Positions 6,192-52,039 of a DNA stretch of 64,000 bases are shown in pieces (position 1 is the stretch's first letter; each line of letters opens with the position of its first letter). This DNA is from Stramenopiles sp. TOSAG23-2 (taxonomy: Eukaryota > Sar). The position numbers and the translations under genes were made by a program. The notes under the pieces were generated by a model that was given only the letters and a program-made list of their open reading frames with translations, had not been told where the DNA came from and ran no database searches. The DNA is taken from assembly GCA_900128395.1 (NCBI GenBank), contig LT649244.1, positions 1 to 64,000 of the forward strand, read 5' to 3'.

Positions 6192-6936
6192 TAACTTTTC
6201 CTTTCCCACAAAAACATTAAATACCAATTTGTGGAGAATAAATTTAGAAACCATGCATATATGTACATGAAAATAAATTAATAATTCGACTGAATACCTT
6301 AGTATATGAAATTGTTTTGAATAATTTAACTGAATACTTGGTACCATAATACATTAAAAAGAAAAATGCAGACCTAATTTTTCAATTTGAAAACAGAACC
6401 ATACATGTAAAAAATTTTTGAAACCCAGCTTACTTGAAGATGTAAACATAATTTTCGTCGTAACAAGAAAATGAAAAAAAATATTTTAAAATATTATATA
6501 AAAAATATTAATATTACATTTTATAAAATATATTTAAATGATATATAAAATATTTATAAAAAATACATTAAAATATACGCACAATACATATCATCATAAT
6601 TATATGTTTGATTGGATGCGTGCAAAGTTTTTATAGATAGATAAGATAAAGAAAAATAATACAACAGAAAGATTAGAGTGTATATATAAATTAAAAAAAC
6701 AAATCTCAAGTGTTCTTCAGTGTATGATATTTGATTGGATGCGTGCAAAGTTTTTATAGATAGATAAGATAAAGAAAAATAATACAACAGAAAGATTAGA
6801 GTGTATATATAAATTAAAAAAACAAATCTCAAGTGTTCTTCAGTGTATGATACCAGCATATGTGTTGTGATACTTTAATATAAATTATCATTACAAAAAA
6901 TACCCTATTCCCTTATATATTACAAATGGTCTCTCT
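6192..6936. other. Convergent 3' intergenic region
   Basis: AT-rich sequence between two gene ends, with no supportable gene. It includes the exact 123-bp tandem duplication at 6607-6852. Apparent ORFs here are products of the duplication. Confidence 0.6.
6607..6852. repeat. Exact tandem duplication, 123 bp x 2
   Basis: Unit 1 is 6607-6729 and unit 2 is 6730-6852, both starting TTTGATTGGATGCGTGC and ending CTTCAGTGTATGATA. I find no mismatch. The period is a multiple of three, so an antisense ORF runs through both copies without being a gene. Confidence 0.9.
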
Positions 6937-7807: not shown

Positions 7808-8446
7808 TCGTCTATCAAATATCTTTGGGATGGGAATGAATTTTTTGTGTTTGTTTTTTTGCTGGTTTTGATTCTTAGTGCATTTTCAAAGTGGCAAGTT
7901 TATTTAAGTACTACTTGAGTATACTAAATTATGCATATTTGGTTGAGAGGTATTGGGTATTACAAACAAATCGGATATTCTTAATATTTTCATCAAAAAT
8001 CTATTGGTTATGCATTTTCAAAGTGGCAAGTTTATTTAAGTACTACTTGAGTATACTAAATTATGCATATTTGGTTGAGAGGTATTGGGTATTACAAACA
8101 AATCGGATATTCTTAATATTTTCATCAAAAATCTATTGGTTATTTTTGGATTTTTTGTAATATCCAATACCTCTCTATCAAATATACATACTCATATATT
8201 ATTATACTAAATCATTACTTAAATTAACTGTCATTTTTGCAACGTAGTATTAAGGTTAAAATGATGATGAAACCATTTCTTCCAAAAATAAAAAAATCAA
8301 ACTTTCGAAGAAATAATCGTTTTGAATGAAAGATGTGTGACTAAATACAAAAATAGAAAAGACAAATAACTGTAACAAACACAACAAGAACAAAAGAAGA
8401 CACACAAAAAAGTAATTACAATAAATCACAAAGAGAAAGAAAACAA
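7543..8446. other. Divergent 5' intergenic region
   Basis: No gene is seen. It holds most of the 140-bp duplication and the 132-bp duplication at 7879-8142, leaving only about 300 bp of unique AT-rich sequence before the ankyrin gene. Confidence 0.6.
7879..8142. repeat. Exact tandem duplication, 132 bp x 2
   Basis: Unit 1 is 7879-8010 and unit 2 is 8011-8142, starting TGCATTTTCAAAGTGGC and ending AATCTATTGGTTA. The length is a multiple of three, which creates an apparent repeated ORF that I do not regard as coding. Confidence 0.9.
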
Positions 8447-9541
8447 ATGAGTGGGGATGGAGATCAAGCATTATGGCGTGCCGCATTTAAAGGCGATGCA
8501 AAAGCATTGATACATGCATTGGTTGATGGTAAAAAATTACGTTGTGTTGGTGGAAAACAATATTCACCAGCAATGTCGATTGGAGGAACATCGCAGCATG
8601 TACGCGGTTATGGATTTGAAAAGCATCAACATCATCACAGCCATGACAAAGAATCACCTCCTGTTATCCATACAACCACATCAAAATCTGTTTTAAACCA
8701 TGCAGATAGACAACATATAACATTGCGTACGCGTATGCATCCTAATCCTGATGCAGCATTACAATTTCAATATTTAAAAACTTACAATAGTACAATTGCA
8801 AAAAAACATCATGATTTAACAGTAGCTTCAACATTTGGAAAATATGAAAGATGGGATGAATTGGGATATGATATTGTTGATGAGAAATTTCAACATTCAT
8901 ATACAAGAGATTATGTATATCCTGGAAAAAACGGCCGGACAGCACTGCACATAGCTAAAAATCATAAAATTATTGAAATATTATTAGAAGCTGGTTGGTC
9001 CCCGAATATGCCAGATCATGATGGGAATACACCGGGTCATTTACATATATATGCAGACCCAGAAACTTCCGAAATCTTAGTTCCTGCATGTTTAATTGCG
9101 TATGGATGTGATATGAAGTTGAAAAATTACGATGGAGAACGACCCATGCAATATTTCGAAAGCAAAAATGAAAAGAAAGATACAGCGAAACAATCAAAAC
9201 AATGGACTCGAGAATATAAAAAATGGATACATAATAAATCAAAATATCCCAAACCGCAAACAGATGCGGTTTATAAAAGCGCATTGCCAAAAAAAGATTA
9301 TTTAGATAGAAAAAAACCTACTCATCGTCATGTTCATGAAGTTGTGCATGAACACGAAGATGAATATGGCATGGCAGCACTAGTTGAATTTGAAGATTTA
9401 ATGGGTGCAAGGCATCATGGCGAGATTGTTGATGTAGACGAAGATACAAAAGAATATACAATACAATATAAAAATGATGGTTATGACATAGAAACGAAAG
9501 TACATTTTAAAGACGTATTAGGTCATTCAGATGCATACTGA
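8447..9541 (+). CDS. Ankyrin-repeat protein with C-terminal Tudor-like domain
   Basis: A degenerate ankyrin-type helix pair opens the protein (ALWRAAFKGDAKALIHALVDG). A His-rich low-complexity stretch follows near residues 60-70. Clear ankyrin repeats are at about 160-240: NGRTALHIAKNHKIIEILLEAG, a second starting DHDGNTPGHLHIY, and a third with YDGERPMQYFE. The C terminus (about 307-364: AALVEFEDLMGARHHGEIV, then DTKEYTIQYKNDGYD) looks like a small Tudor/SH3-like barrel. It is probably a cytosolic or cytoskeletal scaffold with unknown partners. Its 3' end is only 83 bp from the convergent NhaA-fusion gene. Confidence 0.75.
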   Translation: MSGDGDQALWRAAFKGDAKALIHALVDGKKLRCVGGKQYSPAMSIGGTSQHVRGYGFEKHQHHHSHDKESPPVIHTTTSKSVLNHADRQHITLRTRMHPNPDAALQFQYLKTYNSTIAKKHHDLTVASTFGKYERWDELGYDIVDEKFQHSYTRDYVYPGKNGRTALHIAKNHKIIEILLEAGWSPNMPDHDGNTPGHLHIYADPETSEILVPACLIAYGCDMKLKNYDGERPMQYFESKNEKKDTAKQSKQWTREYKKWIHNKSKYPKPQTDAVYKSALPKKDYLDRKKPTHRHVHEVVHEHEDEYGMAALVEFEDLMGARHHGEIVDVDEDTKEYTIQYKNDGYDIETKVHFKDVLGHSDAY

Positions 9542-9624: not shown

Positions 9625-12588
9625 TTATATTGTCATATTGCTAAGAGTAGCAGCACGATTTGGTATTTGACTTTCAATCAACCATTTTTTTTTGGATGAT
9701 TCCTCCCTTTCATGTCGCTCTTTGTCCGCTAAAACTTTTGCTTTCATTCCAGCATTTTTTTCAAGTGCTTTCCTCGTTTTGTCAACATCCCGTATTGTGC
9801 CAATTACACTGTTCACCATAATGTTATCAATTTCTTCATCATCACTCTCGGAATCAATATCGACGTTGAGAAACTTTTTGGTTTTTTCTCTTGCAATTTT
9901 AACTGGTACAGAAAATTTGCAACAAGTTTTGCTTATCAAAATTGCAATTCCAGCTGATAAAATTGACAGTAATGCTCCAAACTTAGCTTCTCCTTCCAGA
10001 ACTGGTGAATTCGGATATGCCACACCAGAAACAAAAAGTGCAACTGTCAAACCAATTGATGCAATGAAACCAATCATGAAGCAATCACGAGTTTGAATAC
10101 CGGGAGGCGGAGGATATCCAATTTTAGTACCAATCATGCTCATCAGACCTATTCCAAGTGTTTTACCCAAAATTAAACTCAGAAAAATACTAATAGATAA
10201 TATGCCAGAATTTTTCATTTGCACACCACCATTTACTAATCCAAAACTGAACATGACACCTATATCAACAAATGGCTTCAAGTCATGCTCAAATGCATGC
10301 AGTGGTGCTTTTGATCCGTGGTCTTCTTCTTCTTCATCATCCGTATGCCCATTGTTATTGCCGTTTTCTAAATCCCTCTTCATTCGTTTCTTTTCCTCTC
10401 CAGGCAATTCATTTGGTAAAAATGGAACGACGCCAACCAATGCTAAGGCTGGATGTATTGAACATTCCATCAAACCAAACCATGCCACTGGACCGGCAAT
10501 AAATATATACAATTTCCAATTCATAAATTTAAGTTTCATAAATACGTACGATATCAACATTGATAAAACAATTAATAAAAGATACAAATAATTAGGCGAT
10601 TGACTTTTATTTGGATATGCAATTGCTATTATAATGAGACCCAAACCATCATCAACAATTGCTAATAGTAATAAATATAAAATTGCTGGATGCCCAGAAC
10701 CGAAAACAAAATATGCCGTAACCCACGCCAATGAAATATCAGTAGCAGTTGGTATTCCCCAACCATTGGCAACATCGGCAAATGTTACATCAGATGGATA
10801 TAAACCCATTGAATGAAAGATAAAAGTAAACAGGAAAAAAAAGGCAACAGGACCAAATACACCACCAAATGTACCTAATAACGGATTGATCGCTTTTTCA
10901 CGTGGTGGATACATTGAACCACCTGGCGAAACTGCTTCTGTAATTTCTTTTACTGCTAAACCGAAGAAAAAACACATGAAAATATCATTTACTATGAAAT
11001 GTATTGTAACATCATGTTTATAGTGTAAATTTAAAATTGTTGGCTTAGTAGTAGACGATGAAGACGATGATAATAACATTCTTCGAGATGCAGAGACAGT
11101 GTCATTGGTTGCAACAACACCAAGTCCACTGCCACTAACATCACCATGATGCCCAGGGCCTAACCAATGATCATATGAATTTTGGGATGTATTTGCCCAT
11201 ATCATTGCAAGTAAAATACCAAGCAATAATGGCATTGCATATGTTGTTGCCGTTTCAATTGCATGTGACAAGGTATCACATCTAAGTTCTACGTTTTGCC
11301 TTGCTTCCCATTTTGCCCATTGCTTACTTGTTTTTGCAAGAGCAGATAACTCTCTACCTAATCGTATCTCTCGTTTTTTCATACCTTTTTTGGTTGGACG
11401 ATGAATTTCCGGAACCATTTTGATCTTATGTACACGTTGCTCCAGTTCAAACCGTAATTCACTTGGATTCATCGCCGTATATGCAGCGCAACAGATATGT
11501 TCATCTTGCATCAATGCCGCAAATGACCCACCAATTTCTATATCCAATTTTCTTGCCTCTGCATTATCAACGCCTAATACAATGACTAAAAACCGAGCAT
11601 TTTTAACATCCATCCCAACATTTACAGCAAATTCTAATCGTGCAAATATGATAATTCTATGATCCGTTTTTGTATCATCTAATACACCATCAGATCTATC
11701 CTTATATTTCATAAAATCACTTTCAGCAACTTTGATCAACATTGCTTCTTCTGCATATTCTTGCTCTAATACATCGGTTAAAAAACTTAACCGACGAGAC
11801 AAAGTACTAGAGTTCACAGCGGAATTGTTACTAACTTCTCTTGACATTCTAATTTCATTTTCATTTTCAACCGGATTCCGTTTTTGATGACCACATAACA
11901 TGTCAATAGCCTCTAACCTAGCTTCCATCGGAAAAATCTTTCGTTTAATGGCTTTATCAATAATATTTCTAACGACAGCACCAAACGTAAAACCTGGAAC
12001 ATCTATCATGACATGACTGTTTGAAAGACGTTGCAATATTTGTGTCAATCCATATATGCTTACTTGTGGTATTTGTGGCTTGCCCCATACGGTAGGCTTT
12101 TCACCACCTGGATAGATTTTCTTAGCTTTCTCCTCCAATCCATAATTCCATCTATGCGTATGACACCACTTATCCCCTCGTAGTTCATCCAGTTCCGCAA
12201 ATACATGTTTATCTCTCCAAAATTGATGACTTTGTGCTGGCATTTCTATCTTTTCTTTCTTGTCACTTAACCGCATTGGGGGACGAAAATCCGATGCGCT
12301 GTGGTGTTTTTTCTGTCCTGGTGGTTCAAATGAATCTTTTTGAACTTGCTTCGCGTGACTAGCTAAATAGTGCAGTTTCTCTACTATCGACCTTTGGTTA
12401 CTTCCTGGTGATTTCATATAATGTTCCAGCGCATTTATTGTTGGCAAAGCACTTAAGTTCAAAGCTGAAGGAGCATCTTTTCTCTGAAAATTTTCATTTG
12501 TTTTATCATTATTTATTGCATTCCCACTCTCAACCGTTACTATCTCTGCTTCCACAGGTTTAATATTTGCAGAAGGTCTAAATGACAT
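9625..12588 (-). CDS. Band-3-like cytoplasmic domain fused to NhaA-type Na+/H+ antiporter
   Basis: The 987-residue protein joins two known modules. After a disordered N terminus, residues about 125-405 resemble the cytoplasmic domain of SLC4 anion exchangers. Evidence is HTHRWNYGLEEKAK...GEKPTVWGKPQIPQVSIYGL, which parallels the WxETARWIxxEE...WSKPHVxTLSL region, and FARLEFAVNVG...ARFLVIVLG...GGSFAALMQDEHICCAAY, which parallels the EIIA-like core. Residues about 435-900 are a multi-TM NhaA antiporter with the sodium-binding aspartates D617 (in ATDIS) and D646-D647 (in AIVDDGLG), spaced as in bacterial NhaA. A variable Asp/Glu/His-rich loop interrupts the TM region and a charged tail follows. 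It should exchange Na+ for H+ at a membrane under control of the N-terminal domain; direction and location are unknown. Confidence 0.85.
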   Translation of the reverse strand: MSFRPSANIKPVEAEIVTVESGNAINNDKTNENFQRKDAPSALNLSALPTINALEHYMKSPGSNQRSIVEKLHYLASHAKQVQKDSFEPPGQKKHHSASDFRPPMRLSDKKEKIEMPAQSHQFWRDKHVFAELDELRGDKWCHTHRWNYGLEEKAKKIYPGGEKPTVWGKPQIPQVSIYGLTQILQRLSNSHVMIDVPGFTFGAVVRNIIDKAIKRKIFPMEARLEAIDMLCGHQKRNPVENENEIRMSREVSNNSAVNSSTLSRRLSFLTDVLEQEYAEEAMLIKVAESDFMKYKDRSDGVLDDTKTDHRIIIFARLEFAVNVGMDVKNARFLVIVLGVDNAEARKLDIEIGGSFAALMQDEHICCAAYTAMNPSELRFELEQRVHKIKMVPEIHRPTKKGMKKREIRLGRELSALAKTSKQWAKWEARQNVELRCDTLSHAIETATTYAMPLLLGILLAMIWANTSQNSYDHWLGPGHHGDVSGSGLGVVATNDTVSASRRMLLSSSSSSTTKPTILNLHYKHDVTIHFIVNDIFMCFFFGLAVKEITEAVSPGGSMYPPREKAINPLLGTFGGVFGPVAFFFLFTFIFHSMGLYPSDVTFADVANGWGIPTATDISLAWVTAYFVFGSGHPAILYLLLLAIVDDGLGLIIIAIAYPNKSQSPNYLYLLLIVLSMLISYVFMKLKFMNWKLYIFIAGPVAWFGLMECSIHPALALVGVVPFLPNELPGEEKKRMKRDLENGNNNGHTDDEEEEDHGSKAPLHAFEHDLKPFVDIGVMFSFGLVNGGVQMKNSGILSISIFLSLILGKTLGIGLMSMIGTKIGYPPPPGIQTRDCFMIGFIASIGLTVALFVSGVAYPNSPVLEGEAKFGALLSILSAGIAILISKTCCKFSVPVKIAREKTKKFLNVDIDSESDDEEIDNIMVNSVIGTIRDVDKTRKALEKNAGMKAKVLADKERHEREESSKKKWLIESQIPNRAATLSNMTI

Positions 12589-13324
12589 TATTATTATTAT
12601 TACTAAATTGATACGAGAGTATTTACTTCGTTAATAAAAAATAATTAATAATATATTTATAAAAATAATATTATATAGCCTTTGCGCTTTCAATTAGTGG
12701 TATCCAATGAACCAAGTTGCTACTAATACCTATCTGTATATATATGACGGTATTCACAAATTTCAATCTTCTCTCATGTATATGTCTATGTAGAATATAC
12801 AGCAATCAATGTATCTATATATATTCACACACAAATATATTTCTACTATTTATTTATAATACTGATTATTCTTACTGTTTTTTTGTTTGTGGTATAATGG
12901 TATAATAATTAAGAATATATATACAGCAATCAATGTATCTATATATATTCACACACAAATATATTTCTACTATTTATTTATAATACTGATTATTCTTACT
13001 GTTTTTTTGTTTGTGGTATAATGGTATAATAATTAAGAATATATAGAATCTATTATTACATTTTGTATAGGTGCATAGCCGAGTGCTGAGTGCTGAGAAC
13101 TGTTTTGTTACATTTTGTACAGAATATTATAGCACAATACAAATCTAGAACAAAGGCTTCTGACTGATTAGAGCTACGGGCGTTTAATAGTACTACGTGA
13201 TACGTGACATGGTGGTATTAATAATATTATAAGAATACCAATTCTTATACTTAAAAAAAAGAAACTTTCGATTGTATAATATATATTCTAGATGTAAACT
13301 GGTAAACATTGGCCAAATAATTTT
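12589..13324. other. Intergenic region 5' of the antiporter gene
   Basis: AT-rich with no supportable gene. It includes the tandem duplication 12799-13046 and a run of GAGTGCTGAGTGCTGAG near 13080. The left part is probably the promoter of the NhaA-fusion gene. Confidence 0.5.
12799..13046. repeat. Tandem duplication, period 124 bp
   Basis: Units 12799-12922 and 12923-13046 both run from ACAGCAATCAATGTATC to GGTATAATAATTAAGAATAT and are identical apart from the last bases at the junction. Confidence 0.85.
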
Positions 13325-27510: not shown

Positions 27511-30500
27511 TTACGATCGTCGAATTAAATGCGCAGCATCATTCATTTTTTGTTTTGTACTTTTCATATTCTTATATATTTCTTTCTCAAAATGTTTTGC
27601 TGCATCTTCTGGTGATAAATGTAACATTAACTTTTCACGCATGTACATAATGTCCTTTTTAGATCTCAATTCAGGAATTTCAGCAGATATCATCAATTGC
27701 AGCAACGAAAATAATAAATTAGCGTTTTCGCGCAAGATATTGTATGCTTCACCACACGTTTCAACAAATTGACCAAACATTGGACTGTTTTCCCCATCCA
27801 TAACAGAGGCAAACGCAGGAGTAAAGACGAATGATTCTCTTTCCCTTTTATAACCAAACTTCGATTTAAAATTACCTAAAAAATGACCAAAATCAATGTG
27901 AAAGAGCCTACCGTCTCTCGTTACCATAATATTGTCATTGTGACGATCACCAAGCCCTAAAACATAAGTTGCTACACAATATCCTGCGCATGACCTCATA
28001 AACCGACGTTTGTAGTAAGGCCGTTTCTTTGTAGCCGTGTTACTCCTGCTGGTAACCATTTTGCCTCTATTTCTAGAATTTTCACGACCATATGTTTTCC
28101 TTTTTTTTTGTTTCTTACCAAAAAGCTGTTCAGTTTGCGTATCAAAAGTCTGCACCGATTCAAAATTCCAATTAGTGCCATGCTCATTATTTTGCAAACT
28201 GAGCCAATCACTGATATACGTCGTTTTAAACATCGCATCCCGTGCTATACGTAACTTTTTCAAAAAGAGACCTTCTGTATTTCCAGTTTTAACAATGCCA
28301 GCAACTGTCTTTGAATTTTCAACAATTTCAATGAAACCTTCTTCCTCTCCAGTTGGAACAACAGAATATGCCGATATTAATAAATCCAGTTTGTTTTTCT
28401 TCCACATTTGATCCATAACTTGCAAAATTTGTATTGTCAACTGATCTTGCCGTAAATCATCTCCAGTTTTAAACATCGCTTGCAATGTATAGGTTGGAAA
28501 ATTTGATTGACCTCTTGCTTCTTGGGTGGATAAATTTTTTGGAATAGCAATTGCGTCGAAATTCAACCAAAGCGGAACTTGCTTTGAATCCATGACACGA
28601 CATTTTTGAATGTTAATGTTTTTACATATAAAATCAGGAGATAGGGGCAATTGATATGTTTTGAAAAATTTTTCAGTTGTTAAATGCTGCAGCCCTGTTT
28701 TGATTTCGCGACGTTTACGATCCAATGATTTGAATTCTTTCAATGCCATGCTTAAATCTTTTAATTTTTGTACTAAATATAATTGACGGCCAAACTCAAG
28801 CCTATGAATATCTTCAACATGCATGAGATAAATTTGCAATACTATAGTATTCCTTGTTCGAACCAAATTATCATATAATGAAGATCGCAGGTTCCAATAC
28901 AAAACATGTCCAATTATATCTGGATTACGTAATGCCCTACGAACTAATAAACGTGAAAGTGCAGAATCATGATAAGGTTCATGTCGCAATGAATTTGTCA
29001 GTTGTAACATATATATGCGCATCTCGTCATCTGTCCACGAATCTAAACGTGTGACGGCAAATGATCGAACGGCTGGATCCGCAAACGATGGCCCTAATAA
29101 TGTTAAAGCATCAGTGGCAGAAAAACATTGCCACATGTTCAAAAGACGATGCAGCTCGGTCACTTGCTCTACTTTTGTATAATCTACTGCCAAGACCAAT
29201 TTTGGTAATGCTGCTGGTATTGACATCAACGATTTCCGACTTTCCCATATCAATAATTTCTCTGCTGCGACCATAGGTTCAAGTAAATCAGCTTTCACAA
29301 CTGCAACTGCCGGATGCGTATGGCGCCCATCTCTGCTATCCTTTAAAAAACCTTCAGGATCAAGGAATAGCTGATTTGGCGTTGCAACTTGATTAAAATC
29401 GGAGCTAGCACCAGCGAAAAGATTTTCATCGTCATCAATTGCATCCTCGTCATCATCTCCATCGATTACATTATCTCCATCGTTATTATTCTTTTCCTCA
29501 AGCTGATCCCGTTTTTTTTTTGCCGAATCGGGAGATGAAATGAGATCTATATATGAGCGCCCTCTTTCTTTTTGGTAAGAATGCACCACTGATCTTTGAT
29601 CTGGGGATACTCGTTCAAAAAGTACACGTAAGTCACCGCCAGATGCTGTATTAGCAACAACCATGCTCGATGATTGTGCTGGTTTAAACTCTTTCCCAGC
29701 CCATGTACTTAGTGTAATATTACCAGTTACGAGTTCACCTAAGTAATCGTATAACATAATACCAGCCCAAGAGGAAGGCACTGGATCAGCTTTCGCATTG
29801 TACTTTGCCGGCATAATTTTAAAAACCACACGTGTTGCTTTAGGCAATTCATTAATTTTCAAGCTAAACTCTGTTTTAGCTTGCCATTGCATTGAACTCC
29901 CTGATTCACCATCAAGTTCAATTTCCTTACTTAAAGTTGTTTCTTGTTTTTCTAATAAATGTAAACCGTGCCACAATTCAACAGAAACGATGCTCGGTTC
30001 ATATTCCCCCCCCTTCTTTTCTTCAAGGCTTAATATTGTTACTGAAAATGGCACCTCTATAAATGCGGAGGAAATATCCGTCTTCATATTCAAAGAACGG
30101 ACAAATTGAGAATTATTTTCAAAAACACTTGCCAATTGCTTTGCTACTCCTTGAATAAGAATTTCATCTTTTTCTCCGAAGTAACTCCATTTCTTTGTCC
30201 CAGACAATCTCTTATTTATCACTTGGATCACCGCACATATATCGTTTTCACCATGTTTATTAGAATATACTGGGGCGCACAGAATGGAACGAGTTTGAAA
30301 TCCCGTTTTTTTATCAACATCCCGATTAAATCTATGGTCTTTATACGCCCGGGGTATATTTTCTATCTTTCCTGTTTTTGCAACCTCACCTGCAATTCCT
30401 TTTACTGGTAATCTCAAACCTTTTGCCGTTTTATCAACTAATAAGACCAATGCTGGTGGATCTGCATTTTTATCATATAAAAATAGTCCACATCTTTCTG

Positions 30501-32019
30501 CATCAAAAAATGAGGTCAAACTTTCCATAATTCGTTCTATCACATCTTGCGGACCTAATTCTGGCGAATATACTTTTAACAATTCGAGATACAAGGATGA
30601 CTTTAAGTACAAGCTTTCATCATGATCTACATCGGCTTTTAATTTCATGGATAGAACATCTGCATATTTTTTACTATATAATAATAAAGCATCTCTAGCT
30701 CCAGAGTCATCCTCATCACTGTACAATGCTCCAATTAGATGAGCGTGACCAGACAATACTTTTTGAAAAATGTTTCTTGACAATGACAATAACGTCACAC
30801 TTTCATTTGCATAAACAGATGCAGTGCGGCGTTCTGCCGTTAATAGTGCACGTTCCCCGAAGCATTGACTGGTACCTAATCTACCAACTTCTTCCTCCTC
30901 CATACCAGGCGATTCCTTATTTATTTTAGTAATCTTAACACTTCCTTTAATTATGATATAAAATTTTTCACATTTATCATCTCCCTCGTATATGATTTTT
31001 TCACCAGCTTCGAAAAACTCTTTGACGCACTTATCATTTACTTCTTGTAAGTCTTCTCGACTCAATTGCCTAAGTGCAGATACATTCATTAAATATTTTA
31101 AATAGTTACCATCTTCAATTTGTTCTTCTTCAAAATTTTGCCTGACAATGTCTCTCACTCTAGCCTTTTCTCTAACCATATTTTCATTGGAAGAAGCTTT
31201 ACTTGGTTCGTCATCATCATCGTGAAAGAAGAAATTATTGACGCGAAGAATATCCTTATTTGATGATACGCGTGATAGTGGACCTAACCGTGGTATTATC
31301 GAGCTGCGATCTGCAACAAGTCCATTCTGTGCTCCATTATTTATATCCTCAAAATTTTGCTTACCAACATTTATTTCACTACTTTCGAGTTCATAGTGTG
31401 CCTTGTTAAAATGATCGTGCAACGCCTCTTGCCGTTTACTCCAGAATCTACAATAACTGTTCAAATCGTGTAACTCCGAAGCTATTGAATACATATTTAA
31501 ATATTTTTTTCTATCCTCTTCCTCTATTTGTTCTGACAGCTCACTAGCTAAAGACAGCCCCCCCCATTTGCTGTCTGCACCCCCATAATTATTACTATCA
31601 TTACTATATACCATCTTTCCTTGATTCCGAAAGGTAGACGTTTGAAATGGAATGAGCTCTTCTTTAATATCTGAAAACTCCCCATATTTTTGTAAATAGT
31701 CAACCTGAATAGAATCTGCAATTTCATCATCAGTCAACAATAGGTTTGGTATTTCGCGCCCAATCCATTTCAACTCGTTATTTGTGGGCTTCTTATTTAC
31801 ATCCTTTTTTGCAAATGTTGTAATTTGCTTTTGTTTCATTATTTTTTTACTATACTTGGTATTTCTACTTTCTTTTTCTTCTTTTGTATTTAATTGTCTA
31901 TTACCTTTATGAATATTTGCATTTGCAGTTTGTGGAGAATAAGCAGTCAAAAACGACGCCAAAGATGCACGACGAGCGCGCCTGCTTTTAACGTTGGAGT
32001 TCATACTTTTTGTTGTCAA
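27511..32019 (-). CDS. PI3-kinase with cyclic-nucleotide-binding and GAF domains
   Basis: A 1502-residue lipid kinase with added sensor domains. Residues about 305-425 are a cNMP-binding fold (FFEAGEKIIYEGDDKCEKFY, then FGERALLTAERRTASVYA, the phosphate-binding cassette with its Arg). About 476-610 is a GAF domain (ERCGLFLYDKNADPPALVLL, CAVIQVINKR). About 646-760 is a PI3K C2 domain, 910-1080 the helical PIK domain, and 1130-1495 the catalytic domain with FKTGDDLRQDQL, the catalytic loop LGLGDRHNDNIMV and HIDFGHFLGN. The activation loop FKSKFGYKRERESFVFT resembles class I enzymes. It should phosphorylate phosphoinositides at position 3, possibly gated by cAMP or cGMP. No ras-binding domain is obvious. 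A basic insert lies near 1310-1345. Confidence 0.9.
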   Translation of the reverse strand: MTTKSMNSNVKSRRARRASLASFLTAYSPQTANANIHKGNRQLNTKEEKESRNTKYSKKIMKQKQITTFAKKDVNKKPTNNELKWIGREIPNLLLTDDEIADSIQVDYLQKYGEFSDIKEELIPFQTSTFRNQGKMVYSNDSNNYGGADSKWGGLSLASELSEQIEEEDRKKYLNMYSIASELHDLNSYCRFWSKRQEALHDHFNKAHYELESSEINVGKQNFEDINNGAQNGLVADRSSIIPRLGPLSRVSSNKDILRVNNFFFHDDDDEPSKASSNENMVREKARVRDIVRQNFEEEQIEDGNYLKYLMNVSALRQLSREDLQEVNDKCVKEFFEAGEKIIYEGDDKCEKFYIIIKGSVKITKINKESPGMEEEEVGRLGTSQCFGERALLTAERRTASVYANESVTLLSLSRNIFQKVLSGHAHLIGALYSDEDDSGARDALLLYSKKYADVLSMKLKADVDHDESLYLKSSLYLELLKVYSPELGPQDVIERIMESLTSFFDAERCGLFLYDKNADPPALVLLVDKTAKGLRLPVKGIAGEVAKTGKIENIPRAYKDHRFNRDVDKKTGFQTRSILCAPVYSNKHGENDICAVIQVINKRLSGTKKWSYFGEKDEILIQGVAKQLASVFENNSQFVRSLNMKTDISSAFIEVPFSVTILSLEEKKGGEYEPSIVSVELWHGLHLLEKQETTLSKEIELDGESGSSMQWQAKTEFSLKINELPKATRVVFKIMPAKYNAKADPVPSSWAGIMLYDYLGELVTGNITLSTWAGKEFKPAQSSSMVVANTASGGDLRVLFERVSPDQRSVVHSYQKERGRSYIDLISSPDSAKKKRDQLEEKNNNDGDNVIDGDDDEDAIDDDENLFAGASSDFNQVATPNQLFLDPEGFLKDSRDGRHTHPAVAVVKADLLEPMVAAEKLLIWESRKSLMSIPAALPKLVLAVDYTKVEQVTELHRLLNMWQCFSATDALTLLGPSFADPAVRSFAVTRLDSWTDDEMRIYMLQLTNSLRHEPYHDSALSRLLVRRALRNPDIIGHVLYWNLRSSLYDNLVRTRNTIVLQIYLMHVEDIHRLEFGRQLYLVQKLKDLSMALKEFKSLDRKRREIKTGLQHLTTEKFFKTYQLPLSPDFICKNINIQKCRVMDSKQVPLWLNFDAIAIPKNLSTQEARGQSNFPTYTLQAMFKTGDDLRQDQLTIQILQVMDQMWKKNKLDLLISAYSVVPTGEEEGFIEIVENSKTVAGIVKTGNTEGLFLKKLRIARDAMFKTTYISDWLSLQNNEHGTNWNFESVQTFDTQTEQLFGKKQKKRKTYGRENSRNRGKMVTSRSNTATKKRPYYKRRFMRSCAGYCVATYVLGLGDRHNDNIMVTRDGRLFHIDFGHFLGNFKSKFGYKRERESFVFTPAFASVMDGENSPMFGQFVETCGEAYNILRENANLLFSLLQLMISAEIPELRSKKDIMYMREKLMLHLSPEDAAKHFEKEIYKNMKSTKQKMNDAAHLIRRS

Positions 32020-49717: not shown

Positions 49718-52039
49718 TTACATTTTGGCGCCTAAGGTTGCAAAAATACTAGGAGATGCAGGCTCGCCAAATTTCTTTGCAAGTTTTTTTAATTCCCAGT
49801 CAGTTGTTAATTTATGATGGTTTGGTTCTGCACCTTCCCAATGTGCATCCCATGCAACAGGCGCATCATCAACACTTGCAGTTTTCATTGCTTCCCACAT
49901 ACCAGGACCCCATCCGGCAGCATTAATCATATTTGTTCCTACTAATGCATGCGGTTCGCCAGTTTCCCCCCGTGGATAGAAGCGTCGAGATCCAGCTCTT
50001 TCTAGCAATTCATCAATCATGCGTGGTACGTTCATGTAGGTATCATAATATGTCTCATCACCATTACCGTAAACAGCATGTTGAAGACCTTTTAAAGGTT
50101 TATTTGGATTTTCTGATGCAGCTTTTAAATGATAATAAAATTCCCAGAAGTTTTTTGGTGGGTTACCATACATGCTTGATGTACATACAACTAAAAATTT
50201 CGTATTTTTCAATGAATTGAAATTAAAATCATTACCAGTAACAATTGAAGCAGGTTTTTCCAAATCGCCTCCCTCTGGGAACATTCCTAAAATATCTGTA
50301 GCATCACGCTCGGAATCACCCATGAAAAAGGATCCGAATACAAGTGCGACATCTTGACCACCAATATCTCCACTATCCATGGCTGGGGCACTATTATCAC
50401 TTCCTTCTGTGCCATCAGCTGCTGCTGTTAATTTACCAACTTCCGTTGTTACAGCTTCATCCCATTCGATGATATCAACTTCGTCACCAACAACTTCACC
50501 AACTTCTTGTGATGGTGCAGAGCTATAGGTGATAGTAATAGGATCAGCCCCATTATTCTGTGGAATGGTAATAGTAGTGGTACTACCTGGAACAGTTCCA
50601 GTTACAATAGGCGGTGGAGGTTGTTTTACATATTCAGAAGCAGATGCACCTGCAACACGTCCAAATACAACACATTCAAGCAAAGCTGAGCCACCAAGAC
50701 GATTACGTCCATGGATACCACCAGCTAACTCACCAGCAGCAAATAATCCTGGGATTACACGATTTGAACCATCGTATACACATTCTGATTTTGGACTAAT
50801 TGCAAGACCACCCATTGTGTAATGTACAACTGGGGTAACTTGTGCGACGTAAAAACTGTCATTAATATCAAATGGTGCATTTGTGAAATAAATTTTACCA
50901 AATGGATCCGTACCTTTCTTTGCATAATCATTATATTGATCAAATGATTCTTTTAATTGTGAGGTAGGGATGCCCATTTCTGCAGCAAGGTCAGCACCAC
51001 TGTCGAAATGCTTCATAACACGACGGGAGACGTAATGTTTACAATGCCAATCTAAATTTGATGCTGCAGCACTGTTCAATACAAGACGGTATGGTGCTTT
51101 GCCGTGTTCCCACATATTACCGGTTACATAATCACGTTTGCCGATATCATTGCAAAATCGAAAGCCATCGTTACCAAGTAAAATACCACCTTCACCACGC
51201 AATGCTTCTGCTGCTAAAAATTTAGTTTTATTGTCTGGATCATCTGGATTAACAAGACCAGTTGGATGCACTTGTACATGTTTCAACGCAATAGCTTTTG
51301 CACCAATATCCATGGCAATATCAATACCTTCGCCTTGGGAATGGTCACCGTTCGTTGTTGGCAAATGTACTAAATCTGGACGGATTTTTTCCAACAATGA
51401 ACCTTTATGGTTGCCGCCAGCACCATAACCACCAGTTGCTAATACAACAGCATCTGCTACAACGGTTTCCATTGCACCATCACCATTTTCAAATTCCACA
51501 CCAACAACACGACCATGTGGATCTTTAATAAGCTTTTTCGCAGAGGCATTGATTACTAAGTCACACGTACCATCTTCGGCATCAGCTAACTGTTCATATT
51601 TTTGCATAAGTGCAGAAGTAATCTCCATGCCTGGAAATTTACCACCAGATTTTGAACGATGCGTACGTTGATTTGTATGCCCACCTAAACGGGATACAGT
51701 ATCAAGAGCAAGACCAAAATTATCTTGGATCCAATGTACAGCACCTGCACTATTTCCTGCAATAACTTTTGCAAGTGGATATGGTGTAGGCATTGGACCA
51801 GTTTTCACACCAGTAGCGGAACGTACGGTATCCTCAAGAAACTGATCAACACTATCTTTCAAACCCATTTTAGCTTGTGTACGACTACCAGCACCATTAA
51901 TACCAGAAGTTGCTTTAGTACTATTACCACCAAGGAAAGGATTTTTTTCCAATAATGTTACTTGTACACCATTTTGTATGAGTGTATGTGCGGCTGATAA
52001 ACCTGATAAACCACCTCCAACAACAATTGCGCTTGGCAT
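49718..52039 (-). CDS. Soluble fumarate reductase flavoprotein fused to flavodoxin-like domain
   Basis: The 773-residue protein starts with the FAD-binding AIVVGGGLSGLSAAHTL, then LLEKNPFLGGNSTKATSGIN, and has the FRD core: GGHTNQRTHR, HVQVHPTGLVNP, ALRGEGGILLGNDGFRFCND and GLFAAGELAGGIHGRNRLGG. These match the FRD1/Osm1 type that reduces fumarate to succinate. Residues about 565-740 add a flavodoxin-like module (DVALVFGSFFMGDSERDATD, KFLVVCTSSMYGNPPKNFWE, YAVYGNGDETYYDTY-type strands), replacing the cytochrome b5-like domain known in other eukaryotes. The linker is Gly/Thr/Val-rich. The FMN module may feed electrons to FAD. No clear targeting peptide, so a cytosolic place is likely. Confidence 0.85.
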   Translation of the reverse strand: MPSAIVVGGGLSGLSAAHTLIQNGVQVTLLEKNPFLGGNSTKATSGINGAGSRTQAKMGLKDSVDQFLEDTVRSATGVKTGPMPTPYPLAKVIAGNSAGAVHWIQDNFGLALDTVSRLGGHTNQRTHRSKSGGKFPGMEITSALMQKYEQLADAEDGTCDLVINASAKKLIKDPHGRVVGVEFENGDGAMETVVADAVVLATGGYGAGGNHKGSLLEKIRPDLVHLPTTNGDHSQGEGIDIAMDIGAKAIALKHVQVHPTGLVNPDDPDNKTKFLAAEALRGEGGILLGNDGFRFCNDIGKRDYVTGNMWEHGKAPYRLVLNSAAASNLDWHCKHYVSRRVMKHFDSGADLAAEMGIPTSQLKESFDQYNDYAKKGTDPFGKIYFTNAPFDINDSFYVAQVTPVVHYTMGGLAISPKSECVYDGSNRVIPGLFAAGELAGGIHGRNRLGGSALLECVVFGRVAGASASEYVKQPPPPIVTGTVPGSTTTITIPQNNGADPITITYSSAPSQEVGEVVGDEVDIIEWDEAVTTEVGKLTAAADGTEGSDNSAPAMDSGDIGGQDVALVFGSFFMGDSERDATDILGMFPEGGDLEKPASIVTGNDFNFNSLKNTKFLVVCTSSMYGNPPKNFWEFYYHLKAASENPNKPLKGLQHAVYGNGDETYYDTYMNVPRMIDELLERAGSRRFYPRGETGEPHALVGTNMINAAGWGPGMWEAMKTASVDDAPVAWDAHWEGAEPNHHKLTTDWELKKLAKKFGEPASPSIFATLGAKM

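Follow-up and report, generated by a model that had tools for sequence, protein, structure and literature searches.

A band-3-type cytosolic domain fused to a predicted NhaA-type antiporter in a stramenopile and its relatives

We describe a fusion gene in a 64,000-nucleotide stretch of DNA from Stramenopiles sp. TOSAG23-2 (contig LT649244.1, positions 1 to 64,000; hereafter, the window), the source of which is likely a marine protist of the stramenopile line. The gene is a minus-strand open reading frame (ORF) at 9625..12588 without internal stops, and its 987-amino-acid product joins a cytosolic domain of the SLC4/band-3 type to an NhaA-type antiporter domain. This combined architecture, carried in a single frame together with the ion-site residues, is conserved across two large clades of related proteins. 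We consider it reasonably probable that an NhaA antiporter of bacterial derivation captured a eukaryotic-type SLC4 domain, which would dimerize and bring transport under the control of cytosolic pH.

Domain identity of the fusion protein

The first-pass annotation, made from the letters of the window, had read the N-terminal segment as the SLC4 cytoplasmic type, and two of the checks that it named, a profile search with Band_3_cyto (PF07565) and a predicted fold, agree with that assignment. Specifically, Pfam Band_3_cyto matched the protein with a whole-protein E-value of 2.1e-14 (best stretch, residues 128-261, plus a second stretch) and a score of 54.3 bits, above the curated cut-off of 34.3 bits, which places the protein in the family. 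A sequence-profile comparison against the PDB likewise identified the domain as an SLC4/band-3 cytosolic domain, and two structure models with their fold matches returned the fold of the band 3 cytosolic domain (cdb3), including the N-terminal strands that lie outside the EIIA core. Neither PTS EIIA (PF00359) nor the SLC4 membrane domain (PF00955) appeared among the Pfam matches of the window protein at E ≤ 1.

Homologs were collected by a protein search in which only the 7997 candidates sharing the most words were scored, and 95 were listed. The family alignment comprises 54 of these 96 proteins, i.e., the window protein and the 53 homologs with a precomputed PF07565 match. A W..T.R..LE block stands out in this alignment (W141 in 48, T144 in 44, R146 in 41, and E152 in 47 of the 54 members), and it aligns with residues 340-351 of human AE2, which we take to be the counterpart of a pH hot spot at residues ~336-347 of mouse AE2, the numbers being unconfirmed in the papers searched.

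The second half of the protein was matched by Pfam Na_H_antiport_1 (PF06965) over residues 520-882 (E = 4.3e-51; 174.4 bits against a cut-off of 23.5), as the first-pass annotation had expected, and the match spans positions 47-369 of the 374 in the model, i.e., most of the family profile. Foldseek comparison with E. coli NhaA gave template modeling (TM) scores by target of 0.78-0.85 (for 4au5_B, E = 5e-14 and TM = 0.82). The intact D617, D646, and D647 noted at first pass were confirmed by alignment with E. coli NhaA and by conservation: among the 54 family members in the alignment, 53 keep D617, 53 keep D646, and all keep D647, the single misses being gaps, and K809 is Lys in 54 of 54. All four residues, whose counterparts D133, D163, D164, and K300 have known roles in E. 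coli NhaA, are also kept in 91 of 91 rows from the protein search and in 78 of 78 bacterial rows. E767, H768, and K771 match E252, H253, and H256 of E. coli NhaA; of the 91 protein-search rows, 89 retain E548, 90 retain H712, 85 retain E767, and 87 retain K771. The Asp pair is a mark of the electrogenic NhaA type. The antiporter part thus looks intact, and the window protein is probably an electrogenic NhaA-type Na+/H+ antiporter. Residues 891-987 form a C-terminal tail.

The frame proved uninterrupted, as had been proposed, with 987 codons and no stop; the open frame as a whole runs to 1001 codons, a stop lying ~14 codons upstream of the ATG of the fusion gene. A database relative (P0002) is also 987 amino acids long and shows 3 differences from the window protein. 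The fusion gene is the sole match to either Pfam family in the 17.45-Mb assembly, and the SLC4 membrane domain was not found there by a search that, in a separate positive control, detected this domain in both of 2 genomes that are known to contain it. The assembly is possibly incomplete. The features of the gene are collected in Table 1.

Table 1. Parts of the fusion gene, with window coordinates and the basis of each assignment
Feature	Position	Strand	Basis
Whole gene, Band_3_cyto + NhaA fusion	9625..12588	-	987 amino acids in a single frame; relative P0002
N-terminal tail (residues 1-117), for the most part predicted to be disordered	12238..12588	-	Predicted local distance difference test (pLDDT) <50 for residues 1-66 and 85-125
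Residues 126-400, SLC4/band-3-type cytosolic domain	11389..12213	-	
Residues 141-153 (W..T.RW..LEE)	12130..12168	-	Alignment to SLC4 W.ETARW.KFEE
Residues 401-444, helical linker joining both domains	11257..11388	-	Model helices 400-419, 422-431, and 440-449
Residues 445-890, NhaA-type antiporter domain	9919..11256	-	Pfam PF06965, Foldseek, bacterial relatives
D617 (E. coli NhaA D133)	10738..10740	-	HMMER alignment
D646-D647 (E. coli NhaA D163-D164, ion site)	10648..10653	-	HMMER alignment
Residues 726-761, acidic loop, 36 residues	10306..10413	-	Leads into E767/H768/K771
K809 (E. coli NhaA K300)	10162..10164	-	HMMER alignment

The fusion is shared by two clades

Both Pfam domains are present in 53 of the 95 listed homologs, and seven further homologs match our own model of the cytosolic domain (hereafter, B3C), which was built from the family alignment. 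The proposed SLC4-type domain on an NhaA is therefore real as a fusion but not peculiar to the window genome. Fused homologs include proteins of Pelagomonas calceolata, Aureococcus anophagefferens, Chrysophaeum taylorii, and Prorocentrum cordatum, and one homolog entry carries the taxid of Gymnodinium catenatum. Three homologs (P0055, P0065, and P0079) are transcriptome-derived by their source names, indicating that relatives make the fusion as one transcript.

The NhaA part was placed in a tree with IQ-TREE using 74 of the 91 protein-search rows and 14 of the 78 bacterial rows (thinned at 62% identity); most protein-search rows lack a named taxon and were taken as eukaryotic. Near-copies (P0002, P0040, and P0071) were left out, as were P0093 and P0095, which had too few columns. 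The IQ-TREE analysis superseded a first tree, in which the long bacterial row P0096 had been included. The 74 protein-search rows split from the 14 bacterial rows with support 100/94, although this split partly reflects the choice to leave out P0096 together with P0081 and P0094, both of which fell inside the bacteria in the first tree and are probably bacterial. Two clades hold most of the fused proteins: a pelagophyte clade with the window protein (support 98/95), in which 23 rows are fused and 3 lack the domain, and a dinoflagellate clade (support 100/98), in which 26 are fused and 9 lack it. The B3C tree shows the same two clades, with 25 rows each (assigned to clades from the NhaA trees), across a branch with support 100/99. 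Moreover, the B3C and NhaA distances among 50 fused proteins are correlated (Mantel r of 0.73; highest of 999 permutations, 0.17), the correlation being 0.92 within the clade of the window protein and 0.64 within the other. The matching clades and correlated distances indicate that both domains have travelled together for a long time.

Viral contigs were also considered as a source of the fusion, and this origin was rejected: a scan of them with the family alignment gave 39 pattern matches and no relative.

Origin of the two domains

Bacterial relatives of the NhaA part come from Planctomycetota, Chloroflexota, Deltaproteobacteria, and other groups, at identities of up to 48%. At least 522 matches were confirmed, and the best 80 of them make up the bacterial sample, of which 79 proteins were read (L054 was left out). 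In 74 of the 80, the match starts no earlier than query residue 419; in the other six, it starts at residues 365-405, i.e., in the end of the cytosolic domain and the linker. No B3C match at E ≤ 10 was found in any of the 79 bacterial NhaA proteins. Band_3_cyto was likewise matched in none of 8 genomes holding NhaA relatives, where no control matched either.

A related domain does occur in bacteria on a different transporter. Among 294 genomes of the phylum titled Planctomycetota, to which the NhaA relative L004 belongs, 17 matched Band_3_cyto, 10 of them above the cut-off. Ten of the 18 matching places were fetched, and they comprise eight SLC4 proteins (L087-L094; PF00955 at E = 8e-162 or better) and two EIIA proteins without a transporter domain. 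The N-terminal domain of the eight SLC4s matches PF00359 above the cut-off in 8 of 8 and PF07565 above the cut-off in 7 of 8, the latter over parts of the model. These bacterial domains lack the W..T.R..LE strands and carry a PH motif; L090, L094, and L095 were trimmed at the N-terminus before alignment, and the Pfam matches of the two trimmed proteins that belong to the eight SLC4s also start only at profile position 198-203. The PH motif resembles the EIIA active site. The W..T.R strands are common to the NhaA-fused domains and animal SLC4s.

These comparisons are most simply read as deriving the fused domain from an SLC4 domain of the eukaryotic type. The Planctomycetota EIIA-SLC4 proteins may represent an ancestor-like form of the band-3 domain. 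The proposal that the domain moved from an SLC4 onto NhaA is favored in its direction, since the nearest bacterial NhaA relatives lack the domain and the bacterial SLC4s examined carry a simpler EIIA form. Searches for protist SLC4s by domain and by profile each gave 5 fused relatives and nothing else.

Ligand-sensing domains in the middle loop of two other NhaAs

Several other NhaAs among the homologs carry ligand-sensing domains, namely, a cyclic nucleotide-binding (cNMP) domain in P0086, P0087, P0089, P0091, and P0092 and EF hands in P0090. The cNMP domain of P0086, the only member of its group in which the placement was scanned, and the EF hands of P0090 interrupt the NhaA middle loop before the pH-sensor helix, and the remaining four cNMP proteins show gaps of ~220-270 residues between the NhaA halves. 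The acidic loop of the window protein occupies the same place. Lengths derived from simple motifs gave a middle-loop median of 51 residues in B3C proteins (54 of 60 measured), 31 in bacterial proteins (48 of 79), and 315.5 in cNMP proteins (4 of 5); the single EF-hand protein yielded no length.

Proposed mechanism and the evidence against it

We propose that a bacterial NhaA gene entered eukaryotes and that an early member of this eukaryotic NhaA family then acquired, ahead of its antiporter part, the N-terminal domain of an SLC4 transporter of eukaryotic type, in one capture or two. The band-3-type domain would dimerize on the cytosolic side of the antiporter dimer and may make antiporter activity depend on cytosolic pH, docking on the transporter's cytosolic loops and letting go of them in the way that has been put forward for AE2. 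Its likeliest contact would be the acidic loop, which leads to the NhaA pH-sensor region; we suggest this route because other NhaAs carry cNMP domains or EF hands in the loop and because the AE2 domain contacts a loop of its own transporter. According to a review (PMC13263692), the AE2 domain is interlocked with loop IL5 over the range pH 6.55-7.20 and decoupled from it near pH 8.32; it has been proposed as an intracellular pH sensor on evidence that the same text calls inconclusive. The title of a reference cited in PMC10810954 places a pH "regulatory hot spot" within the N-terminal domain of AE2. By analogy with AE2, pH regulation by the fused domain is what we would expect.

Several observations weigh against this reading. 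Fused protein P0032 falls outside both NhaA clades, with weak support, and the B3C tree joins long branches. Mean identity between the clades is 21% for the cytosolic domain versus 45% for the NhaA part; the domain thus evolves faster, and its surfaces may have changed. Domain-less homologs are interspersed among fused ones, including 10 rows that cluster together within the dinoflagellate clade of the first tree (some may be fragments), which implies that the domain can be dispensed with, and on the NhaA IQ-TREE tree, the B3C label has to change at least 9 times. Within the cytosolic domain, the window protein has Leu284 where 27 of the 54 members have His. Finally, the 2026 review (PMC13263692) calls the transport role of the SLC4 domain unclear and reports that AE1 transports without its cytosolic domain.

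A tentative alternative that we regard as rather unlikely is that the band-3-type domain only dimerizes the antiporter or anchors it to partner proteins or enzymes, with no gating by pH. The fast evolution of the cytosolic domain would fit such a role. What the family conserves, however, is the W..T.R..LE block and the core strands, which are not a surface known for ankyrin binding, and two other NhaAs bear ligand-sensing domains; both points speak against this alternative. On the side of anchoring, AE1 domains occur as dimers and bind ankyrin and enzymes, and transport survives their removal, as stated in PMC13263692.

A change of substrate or direction in the antiporter part (e.g., to K+/H+ or Li+), such that sodium export is not its role, appears improbable. 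Transport by the fused members is a prediction from sequence, and H768 is His in just 65 of 91 protein-search rows compared with 76 of 78 bacterial rows; nevertheless, it is His in the window protein, and D617, D646, D647, and K809 are invariant in both sets.

A surviving EIIA-type phosphorylation switch in place of a band-3 domain is very unlikely. The window protein gives no PF00359 match at E ≤ 1. The column of residue 284, which we read as that of the PH histidine in an alignment that is loose there, holds Leu in the window protein and His in 27 of the 54 fused members. A separate EIIA domain in P0031 and P0058 was considered and rejected, the PF00359 stretch in these proteins overlapping the Band_3_cyto stretch. 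By eye, NBCe1 apparently has Asn at the column of residue 284.

That the fusion is an artifact of assembly, or two genes read as one, is hardly credible, given the stop-free frame, the 987-amino-acid database relative with 3 differences, and the 53 homologs with both domains, some of them transcriptome-derived; for the family as a whole, this explanation is already refuted.

Neighboring genes and repeats

An ankyrin-repeat protein gene (8447..9541, plus strand) lies tail-to-tail with the fusion gene, with 83 bases between the ORF ends. Gene adjacency in a eukaryote is weak evidence, and we therefore made no use of this neighbor as an ankyrin connection; the suggestion at first pass of a link to cytoskeletal signals found no support. 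Repeats of ~120 bases, seemingly in two copies between genes, are visible by eye at ~12790-13045, 6554-6859, and 7891-8160, one pair apparently directly upstream of the fusion gene. Genes of the genome are eukaryotic in kind, among them a phosphoinositide 3-kinase (PI3-kinase), topoisomerase II, and a WD40 protein. The PI3-kinase (27511..32019, minus strand; 1502 amino acids) has cNMP-binding (residues 334-423) and GAF (490-631) domains ahead of its C2, PIK, and kinase domains, a combination that looks unusual. At 49718..52039 (minus strand), an FAD_binding_2 domain and a flavodoxin domain share one protein of 773 amino acids.

Significance and comparison with known systems

Public databases already label such proteins with both domains, and our search of open-licence papers found none on the combination of NhaA with a band-3 cytoplasmic domain. 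Among the same papers, none turned up on an NhaA antiporter of stramenopiles or on bacterial SLC4 proteins with EIIA domains. In a coral paper that names NhaA, found by a dinoflagellate search, the sole mention of NhaA is the title of a reference. With this domain placed by evolution on a transporter whose fold is unrelated to that of SLC4, the family amounts to a natural domain-swap experiment: if the domain brings pH control, it is a transferable sensor, and otherwise, anchoring or dimerization becomes the more likely role of the domain in SLC4. On a more speculative note, the domain could be a portable cytosolic sensor with its beginnings in a bacterial EIIA domain carried by SLC4; eukaryotes would have added the extra strands, and NhaA would later have captured the domain with the same pH control. 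Equally tentatively, the capture might have occurred early in the stramenopile/alveolate line and conferred AE2-like pH control of Na+/H+ exchange. If the portable-sensor account is true, the fused NhaAs separate the role of the domain from that of the SLC4 membrane part. The finding may bear on sodium and pH handling in certain marine algae and dinoflagellates. A source for the band-3 domain is suggested by the EIIA-SLC4 proteins of Planctomycetota.

Among known systems, the closest to residues 126-400 is the N-terminal cytosolic domain of SLC4 transporters (band 3 cdb3, AE2, NBCe1, and NDCBE; PF07565). The window protein resembles E. coli NhaA in fold and in the residues corresponding to D133, D163, D164, and K300; unlike E. 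coli NhaA, it adds a cytosolic domain, an acidic loop, and a C-terminal tail. The sperm Na+/H+ exchanger SLC9C1 is likewise an antiporter core with fused regulatory domains, to which Foldseek matched the window protein weakly (E ~1e-5); there, regulation falls to a voltage sensor and a cyclic nucleotide domain, not to a band-3 domain. The Planctomycetota EIIA-SLC4 proteins share with the fusion the placement of an EIIA-related cytosolic domain ahead of a transporter, but there the transporter is an SLC4 (PF00955), and the domain has the PH motif and lacks the W..T.R strands.
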